Below are positions 4,204-21,560 of a stretch of DNA of 22,649 nt, one piece after another. The stretch is from a virus: IMG/VR virus record IMGVR_UViG_3300023180_005099, positions 1-22,649 of that record, one strand, 5' to 3'. Positions within the stretch are counted from its first letter, which is position 1; every line of letters begins with the position of its first letter. The notes under the pieces are model-generated. The model did no database searches. It was not told where the DNA came from and saw only the letters and a program-made list of their open reading frames with translations. Made by a program: the position numbers and the translations under genes.

Positions 4204-4211
4204 GATAAATA
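4204..4211 (+). promoter_or_regulatory. T4-type late promoter motif GATAAATA (abuts ATG)
   Basis: GATAAATA directly follows the TAG stop of the protease gene. It matches the T4 late promoter TATAAATA in 7 of 8 positions. Only 5 nt separate it from the ATG at 4217. With the T4 spacing (motif at about -13 to -6) the transcript would begin at the A of ATG. The other GATAAATA/AATAAATA copies in this window lie 21-24 nt before their start codons, so this one is exceptional. Confidence 0.6.
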
Positions 4212-4216
4212 TTAGT

Positions 4217-4882
4217 ATGGCAATTAATTTAGTAAACATCGGCGGCGTAGCAAATGACGGAACAGGTGACGATCTACGCGAAGCGTTTGTAAAGGTTAAC
4301 AATAACTTTACAGAACTAGATAACCGTAATCCTGAGCAAACTACTGCATCTAACCTAGGTACAGTAGGTGAAGGCGTCTTTGCACAAAAAAGCGGATTTG
4401 ATTTACAGTTTAAGAAAATTGTTGCTGGCGGAAATGTTACTGTAACATCTGACGCAAATGGTGTTATTATTTCAAGTGTTGGAGGACTACAAGCACTAGT
4501 AGTTAGTACAGATGCAGGAAATATTACACTTGCAGAAGGTGATACATTTACTATTGCTGGCGGTACAAATGTAAACACTGCTACACAAGGGCCTGATGGT
4601 ATTGTAATTAATTCTCTTACAGAACTATCCAGTGATGCTACACCTCAACTAGGAGGCACATTAGATGGTCAAGGCAACAAAATTCTCAATGTAAGAAATA
4701 TTGAAAGTTTAGTATATGATGTTGATGTTCGTGATGTATACGGATTCAACTTTGGTACTATTACAAAATCTGCGTCAAGTATTATTGAGTTTTTAGGTAC
4801 AACAATAGATGTTGATTTAGGCACTGTTGTTACACCTACAGACGTTGATATTGATGTAGGAACTATTACAAACCCACTTTAA
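4217..4882 (+). CDS. Virion structural protein (fibre or baseplate-associated)
   Basis: 221 residues. The N-terminus (NIGGVANDGTGDDLREAF followed by VNNNFTELD) is a segment I know from the N-termini of marine T4-like virion proteins. The middle is repetitive and low in complexity: GNVTVTSDANGVII, GNITLAEGDTFTIAGG and LGGTLDGQGNKILNV, the last being a classic fibre motif. The tail is rich in Asp, Val and Thr (VDVDLGTVVTPTDVDIDVGTI). There are no catalytic motifs, signal peptide or TM segment. The only SD-like AGGA (4202-4205) is 11 nt from the ATG, so translation may depend on a transcript starting at the adjacent late promoter. It lies between a fibre-linked protease and an Ig-like structural protein. 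I infer a fibre, adaptor or whisker component and cannot name a T4 counterpart. Confidence 0.65.
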   Translation: MAINLVNIGGVANDGTGDDLREAFVKVNNNFTELDNRNPEQTTASNLGTVGEGVFAQKSGFDLQFKKIVAGGNVTVTSDANGVIISSVGGLQALVVSTDAGNITLAEGDTFTIAGGTNVNTATQGPDGIVINSLTELSSDATPQLGGTLDGQGNKILNVRNIESLVYDVDVRDVYGFNFGTITKSASSIIEFLGTTIDVDLGTVVTPTDVDIDVGTITNPL

Positions 4883-10087: not shown

Positions 10088-10095
10088 TATCTATA

Positions 10096-10122
10096 TAGGG
10101 TCTTGACAGACCCTATTTTTTT
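10096..10122 (+). terminator. Intrinsic terminator; loop carries a -35 box
   Basis: A 7-bp stem TAGGGTC/GACCCTA (10096-10102 and 10109-10115) with a 6-nt loop TTGACA, followed by seven T (10116-10122). It lies 9 nt after the MazG-like stop and should end the 8883-10087 unit. The loop is also the -35 hexamer of the next promoter. Confidence 0.85.
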
Positions 10123-10131
10123 CTGTATAAT
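10103..10131 (+). promoter_or_regulatory. Consensus sigma70 promoter, predicted leaderless start
   Basis: TTGACA (10103-10108), a 17-nt spacer, then TATAAT (10126-10131): all twelve consensus bases at ideal spacing. Six nt later comes the ATG at 10138, so +1 would be the A of ATG. The -35 sits in the terminator loop and the spacer holds the terminator's T-tract. There is no Shine-Dalgarno sequence. Confidence 0.8.
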
Positions 10132-10137
10132 ACATAT

Positions 10138-10545
10138 ATGAAAGTTGGAATTACCTTTTCTTCATTTGATCTGTTCCATAGCGGACACGTTGCTATGCTC
10201 AAAGAAGCACGATCAAAATGCGATTATTTAATGGTTGGATTACAAACTGATCCCACACTAGATCGTCCAGAAAAGAACAAACCAATTCAAAGTGTATTTG
10301 AACGTTATGTTCAACTAGAAGGCTGTAAGTATATTGATGAAATTATTCCTTATGCTACAGAACAAGATTTAATTGATATTTTGCTTACATATAAAATTGA
10401 TACTAGATTTATTGGTGAAGAATATAAAACAAAAGACTTTACTGGTAAGCAATTATGTGTTGACAAAGGCATTGAATTATACTATAATAAAAGACAACAT
10501 TCGTTCAGTACGAGCGGGTTACGTAAAAGGATAGAACAGGCATGA
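10138..10545 (+). CDS. tagD: TagD-like cytidylyltransferase (HxGH nucleotidyltransferase)
   Basis: 135 residues, the usual size for glycerol-3-phosphate cytidylyltransferase. The order of motifs fits: FSSFDLFHSGHVAML with HxGH at 14-17, DYLMVGLQTD, the KPIQSVFERYVQL helix, KYIDEIIPY, and a C-terminal STSGLRKRI that corresponds to the ISTTxI(R) motif. Members transfer CMP from CTP to a phosphorylated small molecule such as glycerol 3-phosphate; relatives use ethanolamine phosphate or other substrates. In a phage, the CDP-linked product could be used for envelope or glycan modification; this is inference. It is the first gene of the 10138-16327 operon, and translation probably starts at the 5' end of a leaderless mRNA. 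Its 3' end overlaps the clamp-loader gene (ATGA) and contains a second consensus promoter. Confidence 0.8.
   Translation: MKVGITFSSFDLFHSGHVAMLKEARSKCDYLMVGLQTDPTLDRPEKNKPIQSVFERYVQLEGCKYIDEIIPYATEQDLIDILLTYKIDTRFIGEEYKTKDFTGKQLCVDKGIELYYNKRQHSFSTSGLRKRIEQA
10460..10488 (+). promoter_or_regulatory. Possible internal sigma70 promoter for clamp loader
   Basis: TTGACA (10460-10465), a 17-nt spacer, then TATAAT (10483-10488): again 12 of 12 consensus bases, here inside the TagD-like coding sequence. The predicted +1 is ~10495, 47 nt before the clamp-loader ATG at 10542. The bases also encode normal residues (VDK and YYN), so chance is possible. Confidence 0.45.
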
Positions 10546-15135: not shown

Positions 15136-15560
15136 AGCAAAAGTTTATTGATGCATACATGGATGTTGCCGAACGGTTTTCGCAGTTAAGTCACGCTAAA
15201 AGACTACAAGTTGGTGCTATCGTTGTAAAGGATGATCGCATAATCTCTATTGGTTACAACGGTATGCCTAGTGGCTGGGATAATGAATGCGAAGAGATTA
15301 TTGAAGTTAACGAACTAGAAGTTGAGACTAGATCAAAACCAGAAGTATTACACGCAGAATCAAATGCTATTGCTAAACTAGCAAGTTCACATGAAAGTGG
15401 TAAAAATGCCACGTTACTGTGTACTCACTCACCTTGTATTGACTGTGCTAAACTAATATATCAAAGTGGAATAGACACTGTGTACTATAAGCATAACTAT
15501 CGTAGTACAGACGGAATTGAATTTTTAAATAAGTCTGGAGTAAAGACTAAACAAGTATGA
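15132..15560 (+). CDS. dCMP deaminase
   Basis: 142 residues. Zinc and catalytic motifs are complete: HAESNAIAK (His74, Glu76) and SPCIDCAKLI (Cys102, Cys105). The N-terminal AKRLQVGAIVVKDDRIISIGYNG is the normal substrate-side segment of the cytidine/deoxycytidylate deaminase family. The residues between (WDNECEEI...EVETRSKPEVL) fit the T4-type insertion, though the second zinc site of T4 gpcd is not obvious here. It deaminates dCMP to dUMP for ThyX and is often controlled by dCTP and dTTP in the family. It overlaps both neighbours by ATGA. Confidence 0.92.
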   Translation: MKQKFIDAYMDVAERFSQLSHAKRLQVGAIVVKDDRIISIGYNGMPSGWDNECEEIIEVNELEVETRSKPEVLHAESNAIAKLASSHESGKNATLLCTHSPCIDCAKLIYQSGIDTVYYKHNYRSTDGIEFLNKSGVKTKQV

Positions 15561-16327
15561 TAAACAGTATTAAGAATTTTTTTAGGAAAGACAAACCGGT
15601 AATTAATTTTGCTACACAAAATTGGGGTGTGCGTAAGTATGCTCCTATACAACCTGCTGGTAAGTTTATCCCAAAACAATTTCAAGATATTAGTCCCCAT
15701 TTTGAAAAAGCCGAACACAATATAGACAGCAAAAAAACTATTAGAGCCTGTCCAGGAATTACTGATTATCTAAGTATGGGATTTGTTATTCCGGCTTGGT
15801 GCGATATTGAAATAACACCAACACCAGATGGTCAGCACGTTGAAACACGCTATTCAGATCCTATGTACAACGATGCATATCATCCACCGGAACAACTAAG
15901 TGGATTTATGAGCGGTAAGTTTAAAGTTCGTGGTGCTGTTAAATTAGACAATCCTTGGTTTACTTGGAACAAGCAAGGTTGGAGTACATTGTATTTGCCT
16001 ATGTATTATCATAGCGAAGGACGTAACTGGGAAGCAGTACCTGGTGTTATTGATCACGACAAAGGTGCTCCACAAAGTCCTATTAATATAATGCTAAAAG
16101 AGATTAAACCCACTACTATTAAGATGGGCGAACCATTAATACAAGTAATACCTTTTAAACGACAAAGAATTACCGCAAGAACTATGGAACTTGACCAAAC
16201 AATTATGAAACGTCAATGGGCAATATCCAGCCTACACAATATGACTTATGCAGGCTGGATGAAATGGGTCAAAGAAAAGAAACTCTATGTAGTTGATGCC
16301 CGTGACACCGAGTTACCCGGCGACTAA
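15557..16327 (+). CDS. Protein of unknown function, end of metabolic operon
   Basis: 256 residues. I cannot name its family. The N-terminus is basic (MINSIKNFFRKDKP). The core has ACPGITDYLSMGFVIPAWCD, WFTWNKQGWSTLYLPMYYH and GEPLIQVIPFKRQRIT, with many Trp, Tyr and Pro residues. MGFVIPAWCDIEI followed by a beta-rich stretch suggests a compact alpha/beta or cupin-like fold, but I see no metal or nucleotide motif. The C-terminal helix (QWAISSLHNMTYAGWMKWVK) precedes a short acidic end. It overlaps the deaminase gene by ATGA, so it shares its transcript. Its TAA overlaps by 2 nt the TAG of phoH on the other strand. A small-molecule enzyme is possible; nothing more can be said. Confidence 0.6.
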   Translation: MINSIKNFFRKDKPVINFATQNWGVRKYAPIQPAGKFIPKQFQDISPHFEKAEHNIDSKKTIRACPGITDYLSMGFVIPAWCDIEITPTPDGQHVETRYSDPMYNDAYHPPEQLSGFMSGKFKVRGAVKLDNPWFTWNKQGWSTLYLPMYYHSEGRNWEAVPGVIDHDKGAPQSPINIMLKEIKPTTIKMGEPLIQVIPFKRQRITARTMELDQTIMKRQWAISSLHNMTYAGWMKWVKEKKLYVVDARDTELPGD

Positions 16328-19817: not shown

Positions 19818-19932
19818 TTGTTCTGCTAGATCTAATTGCACCGCACACCCTGGTGCTGATGTTGACATTAATAAGGGTGAAACAATCCAAGAAAAAGTAA
19901 CTCCAAAGGGCGAAATTCGCTGTACTTTCTAA
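19774..19932 (+). CDS. Second small lipoprotein (52 aa), alternative o-spanin
   Basis: 52 residues, short enough to be overlooked. MRATIVLLIALIVSSCSARS has a charged start, a hydrophobic stretch and the lipobox VSSC, with Cys16 as the lipid anchor. The mature peptide of 37 residues contains Cys22 and Cys50, able to form a loop or dimer. Its ATG lies inside the acidic tail of the lipoprotein gene before it (44-nt overlap), in the one remaining frame. Its size is close to lambda Rz1 (60, lipidated), but it lacks the Pro-rich mature part typical of Rz1. Its stop TAA overlaps the late-type motif at 19931. The ribosome site is weak. Real expression is likely, since a signal peptide and lipobox at this place are improbable by chance, but function is inferred. 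Confidence 0.65.
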   Translation: MRATIVLLIALIVSSCSARSNCTAHPGADVDINKGETIQEKVTPKGEIRCTF

Positions 19933-19938
19933 TAAATA
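19931..19938 (+). promoter_or_regulatory. T4-type late promoter motif AATAAATA
   Basis: AATAAATA lies 23 nt before the ATG at 19962 and overlaps the stop of the second lipoprotein. The spacing matches the other late motifs here. AGGGGG (19951-19956) follows as a strong ribosome site. It would give the membrane-protein pair its own late transcript. Confidence 0.55.
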
Positions 19939-19961: not shown

Positions 19962-20324
19962 ATGTGGGAAATGATACAAAATATGGCTAGTGACAGACTG
20001 TGGATCTACACAGGTATTGCTGGTTCATTGTTTGGTGCCGCATTTTTGTTCTGGTTTAAAGACACAAGAATGGCTATATGGGCAGTGAGCAAATTTGATC
20101 GTGCTTTAGAATATCTAGCAATACGTTGGGGTTGGACATGGTTACAAAATGATCCTAACGCATGGCGTACAAAGTATCCACGTATAACTTCTAAAATCGA
20201 CGAGATTGAGGCAAGACTCGTTAAACTCGAAAAGAATAGTCATCCATGCAAAGAACTTCATGAGTTTGATGTATGGCCTGAACTAGATGCTCGAATTAAA
20301 AAACTAGAGGGTAAAAAGAAATGA
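19962..20324 (+). CDS. One-TM, coiled-coil membrane protein in lysis cassette
   Basis: 120 residues from the ATG at 19962, 5 nt after AGGGGG. A GTG at 19956 lies within that site and is unlikely to be the start. A single TM segment (IYTGIAGSLFGAAFLFWF, ~15-32) is followed by an amphipathic, Trp-rich stretch (AIRWGWTWLQNDPNAW) and charged helices (KIDEIEARLVKLEKN, and ELDARIKKLEGKKK) suited to coiled-coil contacts. No catalytic motif is present. It overlaps the EF-hand protein (ATGA) and sits after the endolysin and spanins, so a holin or holin-regulator role is reasonable. One TM segment plus a large cytoplasmic domain would be unusual for a classical holin. Confidence 0.6.
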   Translation: MWEMIQNMASDRLWIYTGIAGSLFGAAFLFWFKDTRMAIWAVSKFDRALEYLAIRWGWTWLQNDPNAWRTKYPRITSKIDEIEARLVKLEKNSHPCKELHEFDVWPELDARIKKLEGKKK

Positions 20325-20677
20325 GTGAAGAAGTCAAAAAAACTATTAGCGACGAAGCATATACTGAATTATCAGATGCTGACCTTAACGGTGATGGACA
20401 TATTAGTGCAGAAGAACTACGCATTAATCTAGAAGATAAACGCAGACGTATGGAAGATGCAGACGCTCGTAGAGATGCTATGCGTCAAATGACTTGGTTT
20501 GCATTGTTTGGTATGTTATTATATCCAGGCATGATCTTGTTTACATCAATCTTAGGGTTTGAAAGTACAGCAAAAATTATTGGTGATATTGCTCCTACAT
20601 ATTTTGTTGCAATTTCTGCTTTGGTTGCGGCATATTTTGGTGCTAACGCTTACGCTGACAAACAAAACAAAAAATAA
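20321..20677 (+). CDS. EF-hand plus two-TM holin-like membrane protein
   Basis: 118 residues. Residues 21-32 (DLNGDGHISAEE) are a textbook EF-hand loop: D, N, D, H, S and E at positions 1, 3, 5, 7, 9 and 12, and the usual Gly at 6 and Ile at 8. A charged helix follows (KRRRMEDADARRDAMRQ), then two TM segments, ~58-77 (MTWFALFGMLLYPGMILFT) and ~91-110 (APTYFVAISALVAAYFG), and a short basic tail. Two TM segments with both ends inside fit a class II/III holin. A regulatory calcium-binding head is rare for a holin, though I have seen similar proteins near endolysins in marine phages. Calcium-dependent triggering of lysis is an inference. It overlaps the gene before it by ATGA. Confidence 0.7.
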   Translation: MSEEVKKTISDEAYTELSDADLNGDGHISAEELRINLEDKRRRMEDADARRDAMRQMTWFALFGMLLYPGMILFTSILGFESTAKIIGDIAPTYFVAISALVAAYFGANAYADKQNKK

Positions 20678-20692
20678 TCTTAATTGTTAAAA

Positions 20693-20733
20693 CGTAATAG
20701 TCCGTACGATAAGTAATTGTATGGACTATTATG
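20693..20733 (+). promoter_or_regulatory. 15-bp hairpin covering the dnaJ start codon
   Basis: The left arm 20693-20707 pairs along its whole length with the right arm 20719-20733: 15 bp, two of them G-U, with an 11-nt loop (20708-20718). The right arm holds the ATG (20721-20723) and the first codons. In read-through RNA the start would be buried, with no Shine-Dalgarno sequence exposed. RNA started at the late-type motif inside the loop would lack the left arm. Confidence 0.75.
20708..20715 (+). promoter_or_regulatory. Late-like promoter motif GATAAGTA in hairpin loop
   Basis: GATAAGTA differs at one base from the GATAAATA motif found elsewhere in the window. It ends 5 nt before the ATG, exactly the spacing seen at 4217, so the predicted +1 is the A of ATG. 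It occupies the hairpin loop. Confidence 0.5.
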
Positions 20734-21560
20734 ATCGCTTAGGTGTTTCTAGAAATGCCTCTGAAAAAGAAATCAAGACTGCATTCCGCAAGTTAGCGGC
20801 AAAGCACCATCCTGACAAAGGTGGTGATCATAAAAAGTTTACAGAACTTAATGAAGCATACCAAACATTAACTGACCCGCAGAAAAAACAAATGTATGAT
20901 CAGTTCGGTACTGCTGATCCACAACAAGCAGGCTTTAATCCCAACGGACAAGAATTTCATTTTAACAGTGGAAATATGGAAGATATTTTTGGTGCATTTT
21001 TTGGCGGAGGCAATCCGTTTGGTGGTGGATTTAGAAGACAGCCTCAGCGTAATAGAGATGTAACTATTGCTTGTGATATTACACTAGGTGAAGTATACAC
21101 AGGCAAGGGTGTTATTGCTACGTTTAGAACTAATAGTGGACGTGAACAAACAGTTAACATTGATATTCCAAAAGGAATACGTCACGGAGAAACTATACGA
21201 TATCAAGGATTAGGTGATGATAGTATTCCAAATCTTCAACGTGGTAATTTAAATGTTAAAGTAAGAATACTAAAGCACCCATTATATAATGTAGACGGTA
21301 GCGATTTGCATACATCTAAAACAATCAATGTGTTCGATTTAATGCTAGGAACTGCCACAATGCTAGAGTTACCTACAGGTAGAAAAATAAGTATTACTAT
21401 ACCACAAGGCACACAACCAGGCACAGTAATGAGCATTTCCGGACAGGGACTCCCCGACTACAACTCCGGGTATTCAGGCAATATCTACTTACAAATAAAA
21501 GGTGAGATTCCAAAGAATCTTACAGAAGAACAATTGGATTTAATAAGGAAAATTAAATGA
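20721..21560 (+). CDS. dnaJ: DnaJ-like co-chaperone (class B, no zinc finger)
   Basis: 279 residues, against ~376 for DnaJ and ~306 for CbpA. The J domain (1-65) has DYYDRLGVSRNASEKEIKTA and the HPD motif (30-32), which triggers ATP hydrolysis by DnaK. A short Gly/Phe linker follows (FGAFFGGGNPFGGGF). The C-terminal client-binding domains are clear (DVTIACDITLGEVYTGKG, VNIDIPKGIRHGETIRYQGL and LELPTGRKISITIPQG). The CxxCxGxG zinc repeats of class A are absent, so it resembles CbpA/DnaJB. It should act with host DnaK. No ribosome site precedes the ATG, which lies in a hairpin with a late-like promoter in its loop. It overlaps the deformylase gene by ATGA. Confidence 0.92.
   Translation: MDYYDRLGVSRNASEKEIKTAFRKLAAKHHPDKGGDHKKFTELNEAYQTLTDPQKKQMYDQFGTADPQQAGFNPNGQEFHFNSGNMEDIFGAFFGGGNPFGGGFRRQPQRNRDVTIACDITLGEVYTGKGVIATFRTNSGREQTVNIDIPKGIRHGETIRYQGLGDDSIPNLQRGNLNVKVRILKHPLYNVDGSDLHTSKTINVFDLMLGTATMLELPTGRKISITIPQGTQPGTVMSISGQGLPDYNSGYSGNIYLQIKGEIPKNLTEEQLDLIRKIK

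Follow-up and report, generated by a model that had tools for sequence, protein, structure and literature searches.

A hairpin over the start codon of a predicted leaderless dnaJ gene in uncultured marine T4-like phages

The dnaJ gene, its neighbourhood and the hairpin over its start

The window, that is, the whole stretch of 22,649 nucleotides that was analysed, comes from uncultured marine T4-like phages. Its dnaJ gene (20721..21560, plus strand) encodes a protein of 279 aa that possesses the Pfam domains DnaJ (J domain) and DnaJ_C, which identify it as a DnaJ. No close relative of this DnaJ was found among isolated phages in the phage collection, where the best full-length matches showed about 35% identity. 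The match to Methylophilales phage Melnitz was limited to a short stretch inside the gene neighbouring dnaJ.

The gene upstream of dnaJ (20321..20677, plus strand) encodes a membrane protein with an EF-hand-like stretch and runs in the same direction. Its stop codon is located 43 nt before the dnaJ ATG. Lysis genes precede dnaJ, also in the same direction, and no terminator-like site was found in the 43-nt gap. This gene order and the terminator-free gap would allow upstream transcripts to run through dnaJ. A late motif, ATAAATA, is present at 19932..19938 (plus strand), 17 nt before the GTG of ORF 19956, and is a possible source of such read-through RNA. Thus, with a late motif serving the gene immediately before dnaJ, the read-through into dnaJ may itself be late.

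When the region was folded with a folding program, the dnaJ ATG (20721) was covered by an RNA stem of 18 bp. The 5′ arm (20693..20710, plus strand) lies upstream of the predicted start of the dnaJ transcript, and the 3′ arm (20716..20733, plus strand) runs from the last five bases ahead of the gene through its ATG and codons 2-5; both arms were assigned from the fold and from paired changes in relatives. The loop, AAGTA (20711..20715, plus strand), was assigned from the fold. A stem of 15 bp with two G-U pairs had been proposed here and is present (20693-20707 with 20719-20733), and the program added three inner pairs (G-U, A-U and U-A). An 11-nt loop containing the whole late-like promoter element, GATAAGTA, had also been proposed. 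In the 18-bp minimum-energy fold, however, only AAGTA is looped and the GAT of GATAAGTA is paired.

The fold energy was -23.4 kcal/mol for a 50-mer and -28.5 kcal/mol for positions 20680-20760, the stretch that had been suggested for folding, and the stem was confirmed there. Compared with shuffled sequences, the z-score was -6.9 to -7.6, and none of 200 shuffles folded as well. In a scan of 45-nt folds, the dnaJ hairpin was the strongest on the plus strand of the window (-23.4); the next unrelated plus-strand site reached -19.0 and the best of eight shuffled windows -20.8. On the minus strand, a hairpin stronger than the dnaJ stem (-24.8 kcal/mol) was observed at 16225-16260 (the site near 16220). 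It lies within the 3′ end of ORF 15557-16327, just beyond the stop of the convergent phoH, and is perhaps a transcript end.

In bacteria, dnaJ is a heat-shock gene. An RNA thermometer, in which heating opens the stem and releases dnaJ, had therefore been named as an alternative use of the hairpin, and a stem over the start of a heat-shock-type gene is what dnaJ shares with the ROSE and fourU thermometers. However, in a calculated temperature series the unpaired probability of the ATG was 0.01 or less up to 75 °C, so that, unlike ROSE and fourU, the stem is too stable to melt. Furthermore, an Rfam scan of the hairpin gave no match at the gathering score, and the promoter is inside the stem, so the gene's own RNA would not carry the 5′ arm. 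We rejected the thermometer on the temperature series and consider its probability close to negligible.

Promoter elements and the predicted transcript start

The element GATAAGTA is located at 20708..20715 (plus strand), at positions -13 to -6 when the A of the ATG is +1, and exactly 5 nt (ATTGT) separate it from the ATG. As had been noticed, its ATAAGTA differs by one base from ATAAATA, the commoner form of the late motif in the window. No Shine-Dalgarno sequence was found before the window's dnaJ. Judging from the promoter spacing, the transcript is predicted to start at the A of the ATG (20721..20721, plus strand).

We collected 115 distinct dnaJ start regions from IMG/VR. NTAARTA was present exactly 5 nt before the ATG in 62 of these loci. 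A sigma70-like -10 box (TATAAT-like) was present 5-8 nt before the ATG in 39, many of which possess TTGACA 17 nt further upstream. In 7 of the 115 loci, a Shine-Dalgarno-like sequence was present instead. Both promoter types are thus predicted to place +1 at or beside the A of the ATG, and the exact 5-nt spacing in the relatives supports the leaderless start originally proposed.

The spacing was also surveyed in 1.008 Mb of related contigs from ten records. ATAAATA occurred 222 times, and 180 occurrences (81%) were just upstream of an ORF ATG, as compared with 18-37% for control words without a promoter role. Most distances to the ATG fell into two classes, 16-34 nt (normal leaders, n = 120) and exactly 5 nt (n = 31); two occurrences were at four nt and none at six. 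This sharp 5-nt class suggests that leaderless late genes, including tail-fibre-like ones, are common in these phages. In the window, the ATAAATA-N5-ATG of a tail-fibre-like gene (4205..4219, plus strand) is leaderless by spacing and has no strong hairpin. An ATG follows 19 of 100 TTGAC-N-TATAAT sites at a distance of 5-8 nt. Searches of the open-licence literature turned up no description of leaderless late genes for T4-like phages.

According to a review (PMC2988020), the TATA box of T4 late promoters spans 8 bp and lies roughly one turn of the helix ahead of the transcript start, its first base being at -13. NATAAATA late promoters occur in T4-like cyanophages such as S-PM2 (PMC2984593). 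The dnaJ element follows the same octamer and spacing logic of a gp55-type late promoter. Unlike the S-PM2 promoters, the start falls on the ATG, and ATAAGTA is used in 58 of the 62 late-type dnaJ loci; other leaderless late genes have ATAAATA. In the 1.008-Mb survey, ATAAGTA showed no general enrichment near starts, so we take its activity as a late promoter as an assumption. With a gp55 query taken from Methylophilales phage Melnitz, a gp55-type late sigma factor was found to be encoded in four larger relatives, and none was found in the window, a 22.6-kb fragment.

In the surveyed contigs, a helix of the strength of the dnaJ helix was present at 5 of 6 dnaJ starts with ATAARTA. It was present at none of 32 other leaderless late starts and at 1 of 137 leadered late starts. 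An IMG/VR scan for the core of class A, the window's type of hairpin, returned almost only dnaJ; the exceptions were a near-identical set of superoxide dismutase genes and a 15-codon frame. These superoxide dismutase genes (L380, 3680-3735; L329, L345, L370 and L383) have ATAAATA-N5-ATG with an 11-bp stem over the ATG, in a layout like that of dnaJ. Thus, within the sequences covered, a hairpin of this strength hardly occurs outside dnaJ. A hairpin promoter of the N4 type was rejected, because the hairpin occurs in 0 of the 32 other leaderless late promoters and so is not general to this promoter class.

Conservation of the stem and its arm designs among relatives

Class A: Across an alignment of 28 loci, standard pairs made up 90.5% of the pair cells, as against 28-55% when the partner was slid by 1-3 bases. 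Seven pairs were changed on both sides. Since class A rows share ancestry and cell counts overstate independent events, the 18 double-change cells in the 28 loci (6 in shuffles) and the 37 in 59 distinct regions (9.8 in shuffles) were given less weight than changes in separate groups and unrelated arm designs. The changes are matched between the arms: C at +9 is accompanied by G at -24 in 5 of 5 sequences, C at +7 by G at -22 in 3 of 3, and A at +4 by T at -19 in 2 of 2. The compensatory changes that had been proposed as a check were therefore seen in the 59 regions. As a separate observation, class A loci (for example, L176 and L181) possess a conserved TAATCACTACTA block at -46 to -35, which begins at the upstream stop codon. 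In almost every class A locus this stop precedes the ATG by exactly 43 nt, and the block is poorly kept in the window itself.

Class B: The arms AAACGCCTAA and TTAGGCGTTT (codons 7-10) flank a sigma70-type promoter and the ATG, and the ATG itself is only partly paired. Here, 88% of cells were paired, as against 34-44% when slid, and 11 double-change cells were counted as against 4.2. In one clade both arms carry AU in place of GC, and the same change appeared again in L042 and L180.

Other loci: In L188, CTAAGTA and the ATG are enclosed by two 13-bp arms unrelated to those of classes A and B. Late-type loci without the A or B arms may have a short spacer-codon stem, GTAATAGT-ATGG-ACTATTAC, for which the permutation p was 0.009 with the spacer alone and 0.11 with the full upstream stretch; this stem is weakly supported. 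No clear enclosing stem was found in 39 of the 115 loci, about a third. Besides these designs, L029, L034, L035, L036, L043, L084 and L136 carry an AAGGAGG Shine-Dalgarno sequence inside a hairpin upstream of dnaJ. Its arms covary (GGAT/ATCC and GCAT/ATGC), and the hairpin is behind a TTAAATA-like box.

When the coding arms were swapped among loci, pairing was lowered in class A, in class B and overall (p 0.001). G-U cells numbered 60 and A-C cells 16, an excess that modestly supports pairing in dnaJ-sense RNA. By the measure of these alignments, the dnaJ stem is under selection. A quick tree of DnaJ requires several changes for either design, of which at least six for A and at least eight for B are forced by well supported branches. 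The window and L012 (class A, late-like promoter) are nested in a class B clade with sigma70-type promoters, and the nearest relatives of the window in this tree possess TTGACA-N17-TATAAT inside the enclosing hairpin.

A terminator is found in place of the AUG hairpin in L150, L152, L154 and L161. In these four loci, a terminator-like hairpin and T-run upstream of dnaJ are followed by TATAAT and then the ATG, and the loop of the hairpin includes TTGA from the -35 box. In the window, a cytidylyltransferase-like gene is arranged likewise (10095-10137, or 10095..10140 with its ATG, plus strand). TTGACA (10103-10108) there lies in the loop and right arm of a terminator hairpin, and TATAAT (10126-10131) is followed 6 nt later by the ATG (10138), so this gene is predicted to be leaderless. 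With this design, read-through would be stopped at RNA polymerase and not at the ribosome.

The same comparisons bear on three explanations that do not involve hiding of the start. A palindrome acting in the DNA, as a repressor target or a cruciform at the promoter, would account for the fact that, in class A, the promoter is enclosed by a perfect dyad. However, the sequence, length and position of the arms vary between clades whereas the enclosing layout is constant, no such dyad is present at 32 other leaderless late promoters, and the ratio of G-U to A-C cells gives modest support to RNA pairing instead. We regard a DNA palindrome as highly unlikely. Its operator form, a CIRCE-like palindrome, was rejected, because there is no one conserved arm sequence and pairing is kept across clades.

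Template switching in replication can change both arms of a repeat at once. Inverted repeats perfected in this way could be neutral and functionless. This would leave unexplained why strong stems cluster at dnaJ and not at 169 other late starts, and why the layout recurs with different arms; we consider it very improbable. A long stem between two genes might also be a site at which RNase III or a similar enzyme cuts the read-through RNA, making or destroying the dnaJ message. The stems of other clades are short or quite different, however, one clade has a terminator, and processing is unnecessary when a promoter precedes the ATG by precisely 5 nt. Such cleavage is in our estimate highly improbable.

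A predicted insulator of the dnaJ message and its relation to T4 systems

We consider it probable that the hairpin is a translational insulator of leaderless dnaJ, by which the start is hidden in read-through RNA and open in RNA from the gene's own promoter. GATAAGTA would most likely be recognised by an RNA polymerase carrying a late sigma factor of the gp55 type, with +1 at the A of the ATG. RNA entering from the side of the lysis genes would carry both arms, so that the ATG and codons 2-5 are paired and ribosomes are blocked. RNA from the gene's own promoter would not carry the 5′ arm, and its AUG would stay open. In class A, the ATG was computed to be unpaired with a probability of about 0 when the RNA is read-through and of 0.4-0.7 when it is leaderless. 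How much DnaJ is made, and when, would then be set by its own promoter alone, independently of upstream transcription. Given that there is no Shine-Dalgarno sequence, an internal start at dnaJ might be weak even without the stem.

In T4, experiments on e, soc, 49 and I-TevI showed a start-site helix in the longer upstream RNA, with a 100-fold effect for e, and such helices hide the Shine-Dalgarno sequence and/or the AUG, hiding of the AUG alone being allowed (PMC3014915). Other homing-endonuclease genes, mobE and segB, share this logic (PMC2988022). As in these T4 genes, dnaJ has (in silico) a helix over the start site in RNA running in from upstream, and its own promoter is placed within the 5′ arm or immediately behind it. 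RNA with the predicted start would not carry that arm. Unlike the T4 genes, dnaJ has no Shine-Dalgarno sequence and, judging from the promoter spacing, no leader, and the AUG and first codons are themselves paired. Furthermore, the gene is dnaJ, there are several unrelated arm designs, and a sigma70-type promoter occupies the same place in relatives. Since hiding of the AUG alone is allowed, the missing Shine-Dalgarno sequence marks dnaJ as a variant, and the hairpin can be read as a leaderless variant of the e/soc/I-TevI logic. The paired changes in relatives support the part of the original prediction that placed a hairpin in read-through RNA with a promoter inside it, after the manner of gene e.

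The original prediction had gone further and made dnaJ late only. This amounts to a strict early/late switch like that of T4 gene e, in which early read-through is off and the late promoter alone is on. The T4 precedent and the late-like motif and spacing at dnaJ agree with it. However, the motif is ATAAGTA and not ATAAATA, and the promoters in the enclosing hairpins of the window's nearest relatives imply that these are probably expressed early. The late motif at 19932 belonging to the upstream gene and the four loci that use a terminator also argue against it. A strict switch is therefore possible but doubtful. Because relatives nest a sigma70-type promoter in the same position, the shared function of the hairpins would be insulation and not strictly late timing.

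A wider reading is that the insulator at dnaJ arose several times with different arms, and that the leaderless logic, in which the start equals the promoter and transcription is fired by late or sigma70-type promoters, is general, selected genes such as dnaJ, superoxide dismutase and the cytidylyltransferase-like gene being insulated by an AUG hairpin or by a terminator over the -35 box. To us, the chances for and against this wider reading appear about even. If this logic is true, the position of the transcription start alone would decide whether a message is translated.

If the insulator is real, the classic hidden-start control of T4 would extend, with support from paired changes, to messages that lack a leader and to many uncultured phages of the sea. 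Transcript starts in phages not yet grown could be read from sequence alone, and dnaJ would provide a clean test case for the choice of ribosomes between leaderless and internal starts. Phage dnaJ would then be a gene whose dose must not depend on its neighbours.
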